A DNA stretch of 64,000 bases from Roseimicrobium gellanilyticum (GTDB taxonomy: Bacteria; Verrucomicrobiota; Verrucomicrobiia; Verrucomicrobiales; Verrucomicrobiaceae): assembly GCF_003315205.1 (NCBI RefSeq), contig NZ_QNRR01000018.1, positions 1-64,000 on the forward strand. The letters run 5' to 3'. The notes beneath the pieces were generated by a model. That model ran no database searches. It saw only the letters and a list, made by a program, of their open reading frames with translations, and had not been told where the DNA came from. Below are positions 21,351-27,958 of the stretch, piece after piece; position 1 is the first letter of the stretch, and every line of letters begins with the position of its first letter. The position numbers and the translations under genes are program-made.

Positions 21351-21363
21351 GTCCTGCATTTTA

Positions 21364-21390
21364 GGCGGCACCTGAGGTGCCGCCTTTTTT
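21364..21390 (+). terminator. Strong rho-independent terminator
   Basis: A perfect 9-bp stem GGCGGCACC / GGTGCCGCC with a TGA loop is followed by six T. It lies 14 bases after the PVC heme protein stop and ends that unit before the next gene. Confidence 0.93.
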
Positions 21391-21475
21391 GTCCCCAGTC
21401 ATGACCATGCTACACCGATGGTGGCCAAGAATGCATTGCATCAAAGCGGCCTTTGCAGATGATGTTCCCAATTCT

Positions 21476-24043
21476 ATGACTCTTGTCAGGCGGAAGCTTC
21501 TTCCTGATCTCAGCGGCGTCGCAATCGCCGCTCTCTTGCTCTCGTGTCTCAGCCTGCCACTGTGGGGCCAGAGCGATGAAGATGACATCCCTGCTCCCAA
21601 GGCGGAAGTGACCCTCCTGCACCAGAAAGCCATGGTGCGCCTGTACGAACCGGATGAGCGACCGCCGAAGGCCGTCTTTGTGTTCGGCTCCGGCGATGGT
21701 GGGTGGTCCGCCTGGGAAGATGCGGCCAGCCACTGGCTGCGGGATGCGGGGATCTATGTAATCGGATTCGATCTGCGTGAGTACGCAGAAAAGGATTATG
21801 ACCAGCAGAAGCTCGGCCGGGACATGGCCACGCTGGCCAATGAAGCCACTACACGGGGCGGGGGCGATGCCACCACGCCCATCATCTACGGCGGGTGGAG
21901 CATGGGCGCAGTGCAGGCCGTGCCGGCAGGGGCATTCGCAGGACGCCCCTCGAGCTTGAAGGGGCTGGTCCTGATGAGCGCGGATAGCCGGGGACGGTAC
22001 GGGTTGCGAGCCTCAGATGAGCTTGGCATCACGCCCACGGGACAGGGCACATTTGGCCTTTCAGACTTCAGCAAGAATATCGCCGGCCTCCGGATCGCAC
22101 AATTCCATGGCGGAGCGGACTTCATGGCGTCAACGGCCTGGATACAAGGCCTGACCTCGCCGCATCAGCTCTACATCATGCCGGGAGCGAACCACGGCTT
22201 CGATGGTCCGGACGACAGCTTCGCGCCGCTGCTGCTGCGCGGGGTGGACTGGGTGCTGGGGGATGATGCGGCCGTGGCGCTCCCCCCTGAGCATAACCTT
22301 CCCTTTGGGCTCTCGCCCTTGTGGCCCGCAGCGGCGCTCGCGATGGGTCTCGCGATCTTTTTCATCGTGTCGCGCCGGCACTCCATCCGGGTGTTGGTAC
22401 TCGCGGTGGCCATCATGGGTGCGGTGGATCTGCTGGAAGCCTTGTTCCAGAAGCCACCAGGGGTGCTGGCGTGGATGGAGCAGTGGGTTCCTCTGGGAGT
22501 GACGGAGAAGAGCCGCCTGCTGCTGCTGCTCTCCGGGCTGGCGCTGCTCTCGCTCGCGCGCGCACTGCGCCGGAGGAAACACATCGCATGGATGCTGGCG
22601 CTGGGCATGCTGAGCATCTCCGCCGTGCTGCACCTTGCCCGTGCGTTTGACTGGCACCACACGCTCGCGGCCGTAGTTTTGATTATACCTCTGGTGCGAT
22701 GGAGAAAGGAATTCATCGCCCGCTCGGATGCACCCTCAATGCGACTGGGCTGGATCATGGCAGGCGTGCTTGCCCTGGCACTGTTCGTCTATGGCACCAC
22801 GGGATTGCGGCAACTCAGCGAGCGCGGCAATTTCGGTGAGGCGCTCTCATGGTCCCAATGCGCCCAAGGCGCGGCCGCAGCCGTTGTGATGCAGAAGTCC
22901 GAGCTGGACCGCGATGGCAGCCGTGATGCGCGCAGCTTCCTGGCGACGTTGCGGGCCGGCAGCCTGGTGAGCGCCCTTTTCGTGCTGGCGCTTCTGCTGC
23001 GTCCCGTACTGAAGCGCCGCTTCCCTGAGGCCACCGATGAAGAGCGCGCAAAGGTAAAGAGCATCATTGCGACCCACGGCGCCGATCCGATGGATGGATT
23101 CGCTCTGCTGTCAGACAAACGATACTTCTTCAATGAGGATGGCGACGGCGTGGTAGCCTATGCCTTGTGGAGGAAGTTCGCCGTGGTGCTGGCGGATCCC
23201 ATTTGCGATCCCTCGAAGCGAGCTGAGATGGTGCGGACCTTCAGCCAATTCTGCACACGTCAGGACTGGGAACCTGTCTTCTACTGCTCCCATGTGACTC
23301 ATCGGACGCTCTATGAGGAGTTGGGGTTCGTGACTTTTAAAGTGGGTGAAGATGCGCGACTCGACACGGGTGAGTTCAAGCTCCAGGGCGGCAAGTTCCA
23401 AAACCTCCGCACGGCGCGAAACAAGGCGCAGAAAGCAGGCCTCACCTTCCAGTGGTATGATGCCAGGCCGCATCCGGATCATGGACTGGAGGCCCAGGTG
23501 CAGCTCATCTCCCAACATTGGCTCGACCTGAAGCACGGCGGGGAAATGACCTTCGACCTCGGTGCCTTCAATCTGGACTTCATCCGCGAGCACGGCTGCG
23601 CGATCGTGCGCAATCCGGAGGGCCGCATTGAGACCTTCGCCACCTGGCTCTGCTACGGTGATGGCAAAGGACGCTGCCTGGATCTCATGCGCGGGCGCAA
23701 TGAGTTCAAGGATGTGATGGACTTCCTCATCGTGGAAGCCATCGATCACTTCAAGGCCGGTGGCGTGAAGGAGGTGAGCCTGGGCAATGCCCCCCTCGCC
23801 AACGTCGATGTTGTGGAAGGAGAAAAACTCGAAAGCCGCGAGGAGCGCGCCGTGAAGTTCCTCTTCGACAACTTCGACAAATTCTACGGCTACAAGAGTC
23901 TTTTCAACTTCAAGAAGAAGTACCTTCCCGACTGGCAGGGACGCTACCTGGCCTATCGCCCGCGCGTGAGTCTCGCCATGGTGGGCCTTGCCATTGCGGG
24001 CGTACACTTGCCTCGTGGCTTTGTTGGGCTGGTGAGATCATGA
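21476..24043 (+). CDS. VirJ/AcvB-like hydrolase fused to MprF/LpiA-like aminoacyl-PG synthase
   Basis: The product is 855 aa from ATG 21476, chosen because a signal/anchor helix (VAIAALLLSCLSLPLWGQ) follows; ATGs at 21401 and 21407 are alternatives. Residues about 45-265 are an alpha/beta hydrolase resembling VirJ/AcvB: FGSGDGGWSAW, a GWSMG nucleophile elbow with Ser about 142, Asp about 215 (GGADF) and His about 240 (GANHG). About seven membrane helices (280-525) come next. Residues about 535-840 match the DUF2156/LPG-synthase C domain of MprF/LpiA (FALLSDKRYFFNEDGDGVVAY, then VFYCSHVTHRTLYEELGF, and GGKFQNLRTARNKA). In rhizobia and Agrobacterium the synthase (LpiA) and the periplasmic hydrolase (AtvA/AcvB) are separate genes of one operon. 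Here both appear in one chain, presumably making and removing aminoacyl-phosphatidylglycerol. The membrane part is shorter than the 14-helix MprF, so flippase activity is doubtful. Confidence 0.85.
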   Translation: MTLVRRKLLPDLSGVAIAALLLSCLSLPLWGQSDEDDIPAPKAEVTLLHQKAMVRLYEPDERPPKAVFVFGSGDGGWSAWEDAASHWLRDAGIYVIGFDLREYAEKDYDQQKLGRDMATLANEATTRGGGDATTPIIYGGWSMGAVQAVPAGAFAGRPSSLKGLVLMSADSRGRYGLRASDELGITPTGQGTFGLSDFSKNIAGLRIAQFHGGADFMASTAWIQGLTSPHQLYIMPGANHGFDGPDDSFAPLLLRGVDWVLGDDAAVALPPEHNLPFGLSPLWPAAALAMGLAIFFIVSRRHSIRVLVLAVAIMGAVDLLEALFQKPPGVLAWMEQWVPLGVTEKSRLLLLLSGLALLSLARALRRRKHIAWMLALGMLSISAVLHLARAFDWHHTLAAVVLIIPLVRWRKEFIARSDAPSMRLGWIMAGVLALALFVYGTTGLRQLSERGNFGEALSWSQCAQGAAAAVVMQKSELDRDGSRDARSFLATLRAGSLVSALFVLALLLRPVLKRRFPEATDEERAKVKSIIATHGADPMDGFALLSDKRYFFNEDGDGVVAYALWRKFAVVLADPICDPSKRAEMVRTFSQFCTRQDWEPVFYCSHVTHRTLYEELGFVTFKVGEDARLDTGEFKLQGGKFQNLRTARNKAQKAGLTFQWYDARPHPDHGLEAQVQLISQHWLDLKHGGEMTFDLGAFNLDFIREHGCAIVRNPEGRIETFATWLCYGDGKGRCLDLMRGRNEFKDVMDFLIVEAIDHFKAGGVKEVSLGNAPLANVDVVEGEKLESREERAVKFLFDNFDKFYGYKSLFNFKKKYLPDWQGRYLAYRPRVSLAMVGLAIAGVHLPRGFVGLVRS

Positions 24044-24285
24044 GCAACCATGGTGATGCCAACCGGCCGGCTGGTTTCCGCAAGTGAAGCACGCTGGCAG
24101 CGCGAAGGTGGCAGGAAAAGTGTGTAACGTCCGCCCCATTTTCCGGATGTTATCAAAGATCCGAGGGGGCTCGGCGTCATGCCATTCGTTCTTACTGTGA
24201 CACCCATTGCAGCAAGTGTTCCCGCATGTCGCCGGCCCTGGACACAAGGCGCCCTTCAGCAATGAATTTCTCACGTATTCCCTGT

Positions 24286-26022
24286 ATGAGAGTCCTCACA
24301 CATACTCCCCCTCTGCTTGTGCTGCACATGGCCCTGCTCACCCTCGCCGCTTCAGGAGCCGACCAAAATTCCGAACTCTGGGGTGCCTCGGGAGAAAAGT
24401 GGACCCCGGCCAGCCGGCTCCCTGACTTTTCCCAAGCAGGATACCGCAGAGGCGAAGAGCTATACCGCATCCCGAAGAAGACCGTCTCCGTCAAAGACCT
24501 CGGCGCGAAGGGTGATGGGAAAACGGATGACACCAAGGCCTTCAAGAAGGCCATCTCCGGCCCGGACAAACTGGTTCTGATTCCGAAAGGGCGATATGTG
24601 CTCTCGGACATGCTGGAGATCACGGAGCCACGCGTCGTGCTGCGTGGGGCGGGTCCGCTGGAAACCGTGCTGTTCTTCACACGCCCACTCCAGGAGATCA
24701 AACCCGCCACCGAGCAGACAGGAGAAGGGAAGATGACATCGGTGTATTCGTGGAGCGGCGGCCTCATCAGTGCGAAGGGGGCACAACCACCCACCAAAGG
24801 CTCGCCAGTGGAGGTGACCGCCGAAGCAAAGCGCGGTGACATGAAGCTGACGGTAGGCTCGCACCGCTTCAAAGTAGGAGACGAGGTCATGCTGGTGGTC
24901 ACGGACACAGCCGAGCAATCGCTGCTGCACTACCTCCATCGGGGTCAGGGAAAGGACATCCGCTCCAATTGGAAGAAGGTGAATTCCCAGGTATTCCGGG
25001 TCACTCAGGCGGGCGCCAAGGAAATCACGCTGGACCGGGGGCTGCGATTTGATGTGAAGCTGGAGTGGATTCCCAATGTCTGCCTGTTCAGTCCCGAGGT
25101 CACCGACGTGGGCGTGGAGGAGTTGGGCTTTGAGTTCCCTGCCCAGGCGTACAAGGGTCACTGGGAGGAGGTGGGGTACAATCCCATCGAGTTCACCCGC
25201 AATGTCGCGCACTGCTGGGTCCGCAATGTGCGTGTGTGGAATGCGGACAGCGGCCCTTTCATCTCCGGCTGGTTTTGCTCCGTGGATGGCATCTTGTTCG
25301 GCGCGGATGCCGGTCGCAATTTCGCCGGTGGGATCTCCGGCCATCACGGAGTGACGTTCGAAGGAAGCGACAACCTGTGCACGAACTTCAAGTTCGAGAC
25401 AAAAATGTTTCACGACGTGACCCTGCAAAACGGCGCCATGGGAAATGTCTTCTCGAAAGGAAGCGCACCCGATTTCAATATGGATCATCACAAGGGTGCG
25501 CCCTACGAGAACTTGCTCACCGACATCGATGCAGGCGAAGGAACGCGACTCTTCCAGTCCGGCGGCGCGGGCGGCTACGGGAATCACACCGCCGCGGGAG
25601 CCACCTTCTGGAACATCCGTAGCAAGCAGCCGACGAACTGGCCGGAGCAGTACTCCCTGGATGCCATGAATCTCGTGGCAATGAACACTCAGGGTGCGGA
25701 AGTGAAGACGCCAGATGGCCGATGGATGGAATCCATCCCCCCAGGCAGCATCGCGCCGGCGGATCTTCATCTTGCGATGCGGCAGAAGCGTCTGGGCCCT
25801 CGTGCGCCCGCCACAGTGGCAGCGGCACCGCCTCGGAACGGTGGAGTGCAGCAGTGGAAAAGCACGGACGGACGAGTGATCGAGGCGCAGTTCGTCGGAC
25901 TCCAGGGCGACCAGGTGACCCTGGTGCGGGGAGGCCAGTCGTTCGTCGTTCCGATGGTTCGACTGGCACCGGAAAGCCAGGTACAGGCGCGCAATCTGGC
26001 AGGATCAAATCCCACGCCGTGA
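24286..26022 (+). CDS. Secreted pectate-lyase-fold (GH28-like) protein with SHD1-like tail, copy 1
   Basis: The product is 578 aa from ATG 24286; ATGs at 24226 and 24262 are in frame but less like a signal peptide (VLTHTPPLLVLHMALLTLAASG). The N-terminal pectate-lyase-3/GH28-type opening VKDLGAKGDGKTDDTKAF is followed by LVLIPKGRYVLSDMLEI and a right-handed beta-helix. HHGVTFEGSDNLCTNFKFET and FNMDHHKGAPYENLLTDID are probable helix-turn blocks. The last 50 residues (VQQWKSTDGRVIEAQFVGLQ...VPMVRLAPESQ) resemble the SHD1-like domain common in secreted PVC proteins. The GH28 catalytic Asp cluster is not clearly recognisable, so activity is uncertain. It has a tandem paralogue downstream. Confidence 0.8.
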   Translation: MRVLTHTPPLLVLHMALLTLAASGADQNSELWGASGEKWTPASRLPDFSQAGYRRGEELYRIPKKTVSVKDLGAKGDGKTDDTKAFKKAISGPDKLVLIPKGRYVLSDMLEITEPRVVLRGAGPLETVLFFTRPLQEIKPATEQTGEGKMTSVYSWSGGLISAKGAQPPTKGSPVEVTAEAKRGDMKLTVGSHRFKVGDEVMLVVTDTAEQSLLHYLHRGQGKDIRSNWKKVNSQVFRVTQAGAKEITLDRGLRFDVKLEWIPNVCLFSPEVTDVGVEELGFEFPAQAYKGHWEEVGYNPIEFTRNVAHCWVRNVRVWNADSGPFISGWFCSVDGILFGADAGRNFAGGISGHHGVTFEGSDNLCTNFKFETKMFHDVTLQNGAMGNVFSKGSAPDFNMDHHKGAPYENLLTDIDAGEGTRLFQSGGAGGYGNHTAAGATFWNIRSKQPTNWPEQYSLDAMNLVAMNTQGAEVKTPDGRWMESIPPGSIAPADLHLAMRQKRLGPRAPATVAAAPPRNGGVQQWKSTDGRVIEAQFVGLQGDQVTLVRGGQSFVVPMVRLAPESQVQARNLAGSNPTP

Positions 26023-26209
26023 ATCATCACGGCTCCGGCCCCCCGGACCGCATTCAGGTCCTCTGCACGCTCAACCTCAAGACATCACCCTCGACCTTCA
26101 CCACATCATCGGGCGGCACACTAGGTGCTCTCGTGCCAGTAAGTACATGACTCCGTCGCAAAAAATCACTTTTTTTGCGCTTCCGGGACGTCACTTCTCG
26201 CATGTAGCC

Positions 26210-27958
26210 ATGATGAAGACTTGCTCCATACGATGGACCTCCTTGATGGCCGTATCGCATCTGGCCATGGTCACCACGTTCGCCACGGCGGCGGATCAGA
26301 ATTCGGAACTCTGGGGTGTGGCTGGGGAAAAATGGACACCGACCAGCCGTTTACCGGACTTTTCCCAGGCGGGTTATCGCAGGGGCGAGGAACCCTACCG
26401 CATTCCAAAGGAAACCATCTCCGTGAAGGACCTCGGCGCAAAAGGCGATGGGAAGACTGATGACACCGAAGCATTTAAGAAAGCCATCGCCAGTGGCCCG
26501 GACAAACTGATACTGATCCCGAAGGGAAGGTATGTCCTCTCGGACCAACTGGAGATCCGGCAGCCTCGTGTGGTATTGCGGGGTGACGGCCCGCTGGAAA
26601 CAGTGCTGCTCTTCACGCGTCCGCTCCAGGAGATCAAACCCACGACCGCCGCGACCGGCGATGGGAAGGCGACCTCCGCCTATTCATGGAGCGGCGGTCT
26701 CATCAGCGTGGGAGGCTCACCACCCCACAAAGGAACAAAGCTGCCGGTGACCGCGGAAGCGAAACGTGGCGACCTGAAGCTGACGCTGGCAGCACACAGC
26801 TTCAAGGAGGGCGATGAGGTGTTGCTGACTGCGACGGACACCTCTTCACAATCACTCTTGGCCTATCTGCATCGCGGCCAGGCGACGGATCTCAGCCCGA
26901 GTTTTAAGAAAGTGATCTCCCAGGTCTTCCGGGTCACCAAGGCAGATGCCACGGAACTTACGCTGGACCGGGGCCTGCGGATGGATGTGAAGCTCGAGTG
27001 GGCGCCCACTGTCTGTCTGTTCAGCCCCGATGTCATGGACGTGGGGGTGGAGAATATGGGTTTTGAATTTCCTGCCGAGGCGTACAAGGGCCACTGGGAA
27101 GAGGTGGGATACAATCCCATCGAGTTTTCCCAGTATGTGGCGCACTGCTGGGTCCGGAATATACGGGTGTGGAACGGGGACAATGGCCCATTCATCTCCG
27201 GCTGGTTCTGCACGGTCGATGGCATCCTCTTTGGCGCCGATCGCCGGCGAAACTTCACCGGCGGCATTTCCGGTCACCACGGCGTGACGTTCACCGGATC
27301 GGATAATCTGTGCACCAACTTCATTTTCGAAACCATGATGTTCCATGACGTCACCGTGGACCACGGGGCCACGGGCAATGTCTTCTCCCGGGGACGTGCC
27401 ATGGACTTCAACATGGACCACCACAAGAGCGCACCGTACGAAAATCTCTTCACCGACATCGATGCAGGCGATGGGACGCGGCTCTTCGGCTCCGGAGGTG
27501 CTCCTGGCAGGGGGAACCACACCGCCGCAGGAGCCACCTTCTGGAACATCCGCAGCAAGCAGGGCGCGGACTGGCCGGAACATTTCAAGCTGGACGCCAT
27601 GAATCTGGTGGCAATGAAGATGCGAGGCAGGGACATCAAGACTCCCGAAGGACGGTGGATAGAAACTATCCGTCCGGGTGGCATCACACCACCGGACATC
27701 CATCTCGCGATGCTGCAGAAGCGGCTGGCTGGTCGCACTCCCGTCGCCGCCTCCGCTACTGTGGCATCTCCCGCAGGAGGTGTGCAGTCATGGAAGAGCG
27801 CGGATGGACGGACCATCGAGGCCCAGTTTGCCGGGCTTCAAAACGACCAGGTGACGCTGTTGCGCTCAGGAAAGTCGTTCATTGTTCCACTGGTACGCCT
27901 TGCGCCCGAAAGCCAGGATTTGGCACGCAAGCTGGCAGGCGGCACTGGGAGCCCTTAG
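26210..27958 (+). CDS. Secreted pectate-lyase-fold (GH28-like) protein with SHD1-like tail, copy 2
   Basis: The product is 582 aa from ATG 26210 (26213 is also possible), with a signal peptide (SLMAVSHLAMVTTFATAADQ). It aligns along its full length with the preceding gene: the same NSELWGxxGEKWTPxSRLPDF opening, the same VKDLGAKGDGKTDD start of the beta-helix, and the same SHD1-like tail. Nearly every motif is shared but many positions differ, so this is an older tandem duplication. Lineage differences lie mainly in the turn-forming loops and the signal peptide. The substrate is unknown. The gap between the copies is 187 bases and carries no gene. Confidence 0.8.
   Translation: MMKTCSIRWTSLMAVSHLAMVTTFATAADQNSELWGVAGEKWTPTSRLPDFSQAGYRRGEEPYRIPKETISVKDLGAKGDGKTDDTEAFKKAIASGPDKLILIPKGRYVLSDQLEIRQPRVVLRGDGPLETVLLFTRPLQEIKPTTAATGDGKATSAYSWSGGLISVGGSPPHKGTKLPVTAEAKRGDLKLTLAAHSFKEGDEVLLTATDTSSQSLLAYLHRGQATDLSPSFKKVISQVFRVTKADATELTLDRGLRMDVKLEWAPTVCLFSPDVMDVGVENMGFEFPAEAYKGHWEEVGYNPIEFSQYVAHCWVRNIRVWNGDNGPFISGWFCTVDGILFGADRRRNFTGGISGHHGVTFTGSDNLCTNFIFETMMFHDVTVDHGATGNVFSRGRAMDFNMDHHKSAPYENLFTDIDAGDGTRLFGSGGAPGRGNHTAAGATFWNIRSKQGADWPEHFKLDAMNLVAMKMRGRDIKTPEGRWIETIRPGGITPPDIHLAMLQKRLAGRTPVAASATVASPAGGVQSWKSADGRTIEAQFAGLQNDQVTLLRSGKSFIVPLVRLAPESQDLARKLAGGTGSP

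Follow-up and report, generated by a model that had tools for sequence, protein, structure and literature searches.

Can the enzyme that makes an aminoacylated phospholipid and the enzyme that removes it be joined in one protein? The question is raised by a gene of Roseimicrobium gellanilyticum, located at positions 21476..24043 on the plus strand of a 64,000-nucleotide stretch of contig NZ_QNRR01000018.1, which was analysed as a whole and is called the window below. The gene encodes a protein of 855 aa, designated P0001, which had been predicted from the sequence alone to combine an aminoacyl-phosphatidylglycerol (aminoacyl-PG) synthase of the MprF/LpiA type with its hydrolase of the VirJ/AcvB type. 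That rhizobia encode the two enzymes by separate operon genes, lpiA and acvB, was part of the same prediction and agrees with published work (PMC13197417).

Gene and Domain Organization

The gene lies within an uninterrupted frame, 21377-24043, whose GTG start would give a protein of 888 aa and whose ATG at 21476 gives the 855-aa product. The latter start is preferred because the GTG at 21377 sits within a terminator-like stem-loop (21363..21385, plus strand) in the gap that separates the fusion gene from its upstream neighbour. The stem-loop is a consensus match only, and four such sites were observed in the window versus 2.1 expected in shuffled sequences. In order from the N-terminus, P0001 consists of a predicted signal peptide, a VirJ-type alpha/beta hydrolase, seven membrane helices, and an MprF-type aminoacyl-PG synthase, all features given here being on the plus strand. 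The signal peptide (residues 1-31, 21476..21568) is predicted from a hydrophobic stretch at residues 12-30 found in a hydropathy scan and from a helix at residues 12-25 of the structure model. The hydrolase domain, predicted to be extracytoplasmic (residues 40-263, 21593..22264), is recognized by Pfam, a PDB profile search, and fold matches. It is followed by an extra transmembrane helix running from outside to inside (residues 283-298, 22322..22369; hydropathy, Lys and Arg counts, and model), by the six-helix TMD2, or Subdomain 2, of MprF (residues 303-507, 22382..22996; NCBIfam, model, and structure alignment), and by the synthase domain, predicted to be cytoplasmic (residues 521-830, 23036..23965; Pfam, profile, and structure matches).

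Pfam detects both halves. VirJ (PF06057) matches residues 67-189 with 33.2 bits against a cut-off of 22, the match spanning only positions 3-124 of the 191 in the profile, about two thirds of it. LPG_synthase_C (PF09924) matches residues 531-827 with 236.4 bits against a cut-off of 27.5, which bears out the DUF2156/LPG-synthase assignment of the C-terminus. Both domains were found in all 17 aligned fusions, PF06057 matching each of them at E 0.001. The NCBIfam family NF033480 (MprF/LpiA) reaches 377.3 bits, under its cut-off of 600, and its 841-position model is matched from position 319 onward only; the NCBIfam search assigned no family to the hydrolase domain. The solved relatives closest by sequence are MprF/LpiA chains from residue 306 on, and AcvB for the N-terminus.

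The Synthase Half and the Missing Flippase

The best solved match of the synthase half is the Ala-PG synthase of P. aeruginosa (6.2e-42), followed by the Lys-PG synthase of B. licheniformis (2.2e-38), a gap too small to indicate the amino acid. Residues 521-855 of the model align to the structure 6lv0 with Z 35.2 and rmsd 2.4. The DLMR motif (Asp736-Arg739, 23681..23692) aligns to LDLMR of the P. aeruginosa A-PGS, and D736, M738, and R739 are invariant across 17 fusions. LpiA with the D750N substitution is inactive (PMC13197417), and D736 of P0001 is assumed to be the equivalent of this residue. The LysX family NF002821 also matches, over residues 349-841 and under its cut-off.

The reduced number of helices had been taken to argue against a full flippase, and both the alignment and the model agree: the flippase Subdomain 1 of MprF (TM1-8) is absent, the hydrolase occupies its place, and TMD2 and the synthase remain. 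A search of the genome with the MprF-type flippase profile PF03706 at E 0.001 gave no match, though a divergent flippase could escape it; in the control, the profile matched in 11 of 14 genomes, and one full MprF of the phylum scored just 24.1 bits against a cut-off of 33.4. A truncation in S. aureus lacking most of Subdomain 1 makes Lys-PG and translocates it poorly (PMC8131360), and synthesis without efficient flipping would therefore be expected of P0001.

Membrane Topology

The TMD2 of MprF has six helices (PMC11980842, PMC8131360); therefore, a hydrolase merely set in front of it would share the synthase's side of the membrane. One extra helix in the fusions makes the number odd, and this would place the hydrolase outside and the synthase inside. 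The topology and structure of P0001 are predicted from an AlphaFold2 model built on a 60-row alignment (mean pLDDT 87.8, pTM 0.70), which replaced an earlier one of 17 rows (pLDDT 70.0). Its seven membrane helices, at residues 283-298, 303-323, 344-365, 369-390, 393-408, 418-449, and 483-507, are preceded by the signal-peptide-like helix. The extra helix is absent from all 11 unfused flippase-less synthases examined, in which the stretch ahead of the counterpart of the second helix reaches at best a 19-residue mean hydropathy of 0.98, the threshold for a helix in the scan being 1.25. In 21 fusions, the predicted inside loops contain 26.7, 46.7, 25.1, and 22.9 Lys and Arg per 100 residues, and the predicted outside loops 3.8, 6.5, 9.5, and 10.3. 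An extracytoplasmic hydrolase is thus a prediction on which the hydrophobic N-terminus and the positive-inside pattern agree, and the arrangement put forward earlier, with the two domains on opposite sides of the membrane, is consistent with the model, the loop charges, and the extra helix. Residues 281-845 of the model align to residues 303-860 of the R. tropici MprF with Z 35.7 and rmsd 7.2 over 459 aligned residues (VIA-align), and the MprF structures 7duw and 7f47 are matched as well. The position of the added helix may roughly correspond to that of TM8 in MprF, a lead rather than a result.

The Hydrolase Half and Its Active Site

That the N-terminal domain might belong to an unrelated alpha/beta hydrolase family was checked with a 13-row profile of the hydrolase clade: the best PDB match is AcvB, with E 1.1e-19, and the next is a monoglyceride lipase with 2.8e-7. 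A structure search on the model yields alpha/beta hydrolases with Z of about 18-20; the AcvB entries 9xhm and 9xhn were not among the structure matches listed by Foldseek and VIA-align, whose library reaches only to 2026-04-08, hence this is no counter-evidence to kinship. The original prediction of a VirJ/AcvB domain can be upheld in part. It is favoured by the PF06057 score above the cut-off and by the match to AcvB, but the profile is covered incompletely and the clade is distant from true VirJ, being separated from it (L063, L080) by a very long branch in the N-half tree, from which AcvB itself was left out.

The motifs expected of the family are all there: SGDGGW at residues 72-77, GWSMG at 140-144, His240, and Asp215. 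The profile alignment pairs residues D271, S336, D340, E368, D370, and W378 of AcvB with D74, S142, V146, R172, R174, and E182 of P0001, respectively, the AcvB numbers being counted from S336 along the printed chain. The nucleophile Ser142 of GWSMG (21899..21901), Asp74 (21695..21697), the predicted catalytic His240 (22193..22195; equivalent to AcvB His433, its position assigned by MAFFT), and Asp215, the probable catalytic acid (22118..22120), are kept in all 22 fusions of the residue table, the last in 40 of 40 counted clade members. The table comprises 42 sequences and leaves out L067, a 594-aa frame without Ser at the nucleophile place and without the synthase half, which is included in the N tree. 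AcvB itself retains, in addition, an inactive alpha/beta hydrolase domain (PMC13197417, PMC13135905).

The residues that contact the substrate in AcvB are a different matter. As reported for AcvB, the D271A substitution causes a strong accumulation of Lys-PG and D340A and D370A a moderate one; Asp340 is the alpha-amino contact, and Asp370, tied to lysine by the authors, corresponds to Thr or Ser in the B. abortus VirJ and in Pseudomonas homologues (PMC13197417). At the Asp340 position, occupied in P0001 by Val146 (21911..21913), the residue is non-acidic in 22 of 22 fusions (18 V, 2 A, 1 T, 1 G). It is acidic in 19 of 20 unfused homologues, comprising 17 of the 18 from the same clade (E in all 10 beside short synthases; E in six, D in one, and Q in one of the eight beside long MprF) and both true VirJ proteins, which have D. 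Arg174 (21995..21997), at the place of the contact to the epsilon-amino group of lysine, is Arg in all 40 clade members, the 22 fusions included, and C or D in the two true VirJ. Since D340 is lost in all fusions and D370 is replaced by Arg, Lys-PG is unlikely as the substrate, and these sequences suggest that it is probably another aminoacyl lipid and that the amino acid carried is probably not lysine. Given the same two changes, the hydrolase may act on something else.

Proposed Function and Alternatives

In the reading that we consider fairly probable, P0001 is a bifunctional aminoacyl-PG synthase/hydrolase without a flippase, running a level-limiting or leaflet-restricted cycle. The cytoplasmic C-terminal domain would transfer the amino acid from aminoacyl-tRNA into an ester on phosphatidylglycerol of the inner leaflet. 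The N-terminal domain would be exported by its signal peptide, and the seven helices would hold this serine esterase at the outer face, where it would strip the aminoacyl group off lipid arriving in the outer leaflet. With the esterase standing in the position of the MprF flippase, one polypeptide would make aminoacyl-PG on one side of the membrane and prevent its build-up on the opposite side. Both catalytic activities, PG as the acceptor, and the action of both domains on the same lipid are what we infer; the family of the esterase, its active site, and the pairing of the genes suggest that it would be the synthase's own hydrolase. AcvB both binds LpiA physically and hydrolyses Lys-PG (PMC13197417). 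The bifunctional reading would need the product to reach the outer leaflet without a flippase, which counts against it, as do the changes at the D340 and D370 positions, the very long branch to true VirJ, and the partial coverage of the PF06057 profile.

It is unlikely that the hydrolase domain works on another lipid or ester and shares just a membrane anchor with the synthase. The unconserved AcvB substrate residues would fit this, as would the hydrolases of other families found upstream of flippase-less synthases, namely Abhydrolase_2 (L041), Esterase PF00756 (L086), and an annotated alpha/beta hydrolase-fold protein (L100). However, 19 of the 386 genomes surveyed in the order have a hydrolase of the P0001 family beside an MprF gene, and the physical binding of LpiA by AcvB also weighs against such independence.

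Many alpha/beta hydrolases are acyltransferases, and the N-terminal domain could, though this seems distinctly improbable, be a transacylase that passes the aminoacyl group at the outer face from PG to a glycolipid, LPS, or another envelope ester, so that P0001 would be a machine for envelope aminoacylation and not a futile cycle. The acidic alpha-amino contact, gone from every fusion and present in all but one of the 18 unfused clade members, would be explained, as would the two Arg at the places of acidic residues of AcvB, and the loss of the flippase would suit a direct hand-over. Yet no acceptor-modifying gene is common to the 17 fused loci, and the closest solved relative, AcvB, is a hydrolase.

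Distribution, Gene Pairing, and Origin

The fusion was surveyed across Verrucomicrobiota, as had been suggested along with the original prediction, by searches in which at most two candidates were scored per genome, so that the counts are lower bounds and a second MprF could be missed. In the order (E <=1e-15), 44 of 386 genomes match. At least 19 of the 386 carry the fusion intact. Of the 21 fusion genomes, two have it interrupted, as can happen in draft assemblies: in G002 contig ends cut it, and in G014 the frame breaks close to the C end. In another 19 genomes the two parts are separate close genes on one contig, the synthase frame being of at least 855 aa in 17 of them, 616 aa in G699, and 708 aa in G312. 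Only the synthase half was found in G463, G509, and G673, the synthase gene of G463 being adjoined by a true VirJ gene (locus L080), and G007 has only a hydrolase fragment at a contig end. In the phylum (E <=1e-3), 27 of 387 genomes match: at least eight carry intact fusions, in addition to G002, and in four (G134, G137, G336, and G413) a separate hydrolase gene immediately precedes the gene of a flippase-less synthase. The matches in the other 14 are longer MprF proteins, some of them with a hydrolase alongside, or are weak and partial. In Opitutaceae and others it is the same hydrolase that lies directly upstream of the flippase-less synthase gene.

A second transmembrane MprF was found in none of 13 fusion genomes in which every candidate was scored, and none was seen in the 21 fusion genomes of the order survey, with at most two candidates scored in each. 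G059, with a fusion and a long MprF together, breaks this either/or pattern. Several of the 13 also have a soluble DUF2156 gene in addition to the fusion. When gene families were compared, only the fusion itself was common to all 17 fused loci; in five of them, a DUF1003 gene immediately precedes it.

Beyond the phylum, the survey consisted of a peptide-pattern scan and a plasmid collection. The scan of 84,980 species genomes for six exact peptide patterns of P0001, which reaches close relatives only, found 18 loci, belonging to Verrucomicrobiota wherever the group was named. Among 72,556 plasmid records, 130 match P0001, none of them over 80% of the query and with no fusion seen, and the hydrolase domain alone gave no match.

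The same fusion is found in other genomes at 48-91% identity, and six intact copies come from single-contig genomes (G001, G012, G295, G298, G549, and G593). In four pairs of fusions dN is 0.033-0.125 for the hydrolase and 0.025-0.106 for the synthase, about as low in one half as in the other and in both far below dS, which is saturated in one pair (L010, L011); between the hydrolase and its nearest relative dN is 0.064 and dS 1.07. Judged by these rates, both halves are under purifying selection. An assembly or frame artefact joining two genes, including a sequencing error, can be dismissed because of the 19 intact fusions of the order survey, the presence of both domains in 17 of 17, and the purifying selection in both halves. 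The fusion is genuine, and the claim of a single polypeptide joining synthase and hydrolase domains holds, the frame being intact, both halves having Pfam hits, and the fusion recurring in other genomes.

In both trees all fusions fall on one side of a branch, with support of 99 in the C-half tree (46 rows, 21 fused; a quick tree with SH-aLRT) and 99/100 in the N-half tree (43 rows, 22 fused; a careful one). Left out of one or both were L050 (runs of N, partial), L016, L022, and L044 (contig ends), L020 (a fragment), frames cut by locus ends, and duplicate loci; L015 is in the N tree only. Several long branches were flagged by the program, and within the N tree the position of the fusions is poorly resolved. 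In the C tree, ten flippase-less synthases whose hydrolase is encoded by a gene of its own, from Opitutaceae MAGs and others, and L041 join the fusions (support 100), apart from the long MprF, and the Chroococcidiopsis synthase falls outside this group. Since the fusions group as one clade in either half, a single event is the favoured origin, and the simplest history suggested by the sequences would be a flippase-less synthase with an upstream hydrolase gene, followed by a single fusion. Two independent fusions, hinted at by an unlike extra helix in L054 and L055, are unsupported, the fusions being one clade in both trees.

Comparison with Known Systems

LpiA and AcvB of Agrobacterium, like LpiA and AtvA of Rhizobium, are a synthase and an extracytoplasmic VirJ-type hydrolase that are encoded and act together (PMC13197417). 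They are two proteins, however, and LpiA has a flippase subdomain, while P0001 is one polypeptide without a flippase, with the hydrolase first, an extra helix, and D340 and D370 not kept. With MprF/LpiA of NF033480 it shares TMD2 and the synthase domain, without Subdomain 1. MprF1 of Clostridium perfringens, compared by description only, is a natural flippase-less MprF consisting of TMD2 and the synthase, and the description available mentions no fused hydrolase (PMC11980842). In LysX of mycobacteria an MprF-type synthase is also fused to an enzyme, but there it is a cytoplasmic lysyl-tRNA synthetase domain, the partner in P0001 being a predicted outer-face esterase.

Plasmids of Chroococcidiopsis and Rubrobacter carry three-gene clusters of a hydrolase, a short synthase (542-555 aa), and a flippase, with the hydrolase directly upstream as in the order of the fusion. 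In contrast to P0001, the genes of these clusters are separate, the hydrolase belongs to another family (PF00756 in Chroococcidiopsis), and a flippase-like gene of its own, a PF03706 gene in Chroococcidiopsis, follows the synthase. The N-terminus of the Chroococcidiopsis esterase is hydrophobic, as seen by eye. The Rubrobacter plasmid has a gene for an annotated alpha/beta hydrolase-fold protein upstream and an annotated flippase-like protein as well. In L041 a gene like Abhydrolase_2 and PHB esterases is located upstream on the same strand, 169 bases from a flippase-less synthase. An alpha/beta hydrolase of another family thus lies upstream on the same strand in three of the three cases looked at, a small and non-random sample. 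It is a tentative and rather doubtful idea that in an MprF-type enzyme an esterase took over from the flippase as its second half and that the Chroococcidiopsis, Rubrobacter, and L041 clusters are repeated inventions of a synthase-esterase module.

A literature search of open-licence PMC papers found, among the matches listed, no title or abstract describing a synthase-hydrolase fusion. P0001 is a new architecture of known domains, from which we infer its function. Aminoacyl-PG systems have so far been described as a synthase plus a flippase, with the hydrolase a separate regulator. A natural synthase-hydrolase fusion lends support, from another phylum, to the complex of AcvB and LpiA that was reported in 2026. 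The flippase drops out of the picture, and the fusion offers one protein that can be expressed and whose synthesis and removal steps could each be disabled by changing one residue at a time. It would allow direct tests of why a cell makes and unmakes the same lipid, and of whether aminoacyl-PG serves a purpose in the inner leaflet without being flipped.

Genes neighbouring the fusion

When neighbour genes were compared, 5 of the 17 fused loci proved to have a co-directional gene of one family immediately 5' of the VirJ-type hydrolase–synthase fusion: L088:6171-6950, L089:9991-10698, L090:6333-7043, L091:6095-6820, and L033:4051-4827. In three of these the frames of the upstream gene and the fusion touch. 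The members in L088 and L090, the two that were scanned, are DUF1003 membrane proteins. The window's genome has a DUF1003 gene located away from the fusion (G000:C3:231324-231620). Downstream of the fusion, window genes 24226-26022 (598 aa) and 26147-27958 (603 aa) are consecutive and very similar, probably a tandem duplication; the first matches the pectate-lyase-like fold PF12708.

Related genes elsewhere

A hydrolase, a flippase-less synthase, and a flippase adjoin as genes on plasmids of Chroococcidiopsis (L086:5055-9042) and Rubrobacter (L100:2734-6489). The Chroococcidiopsis hydrolase belongs to a family other than that of the fused one; a DUF1003 gene is present near the Chroococcidiopsis cluster (L086:3494-4063). 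The window's genome also carries a second DUF2156/LPG_synthase_C gene, G000:C4:247935-248711 (locus L002; frame of 388 aa, 113.2 bits), and similar genes are present in several relatives. A distant relative of the hydrolase, L067:1441-3222 on the minus strand, has neither Ser at the nucleophile position nor a synthase half.

In Verrucomicrobiota, the VirJ genes L063:682-1407 (177.5 bits against PF06057) and L080:3087-3836 adjoin full-length MprF and lie on a branch far from the fused hydrolase. Because these far-branch genes also adjoin MprF, the phylum has two separate lineages of VirJ-like genes that pair with MprF.
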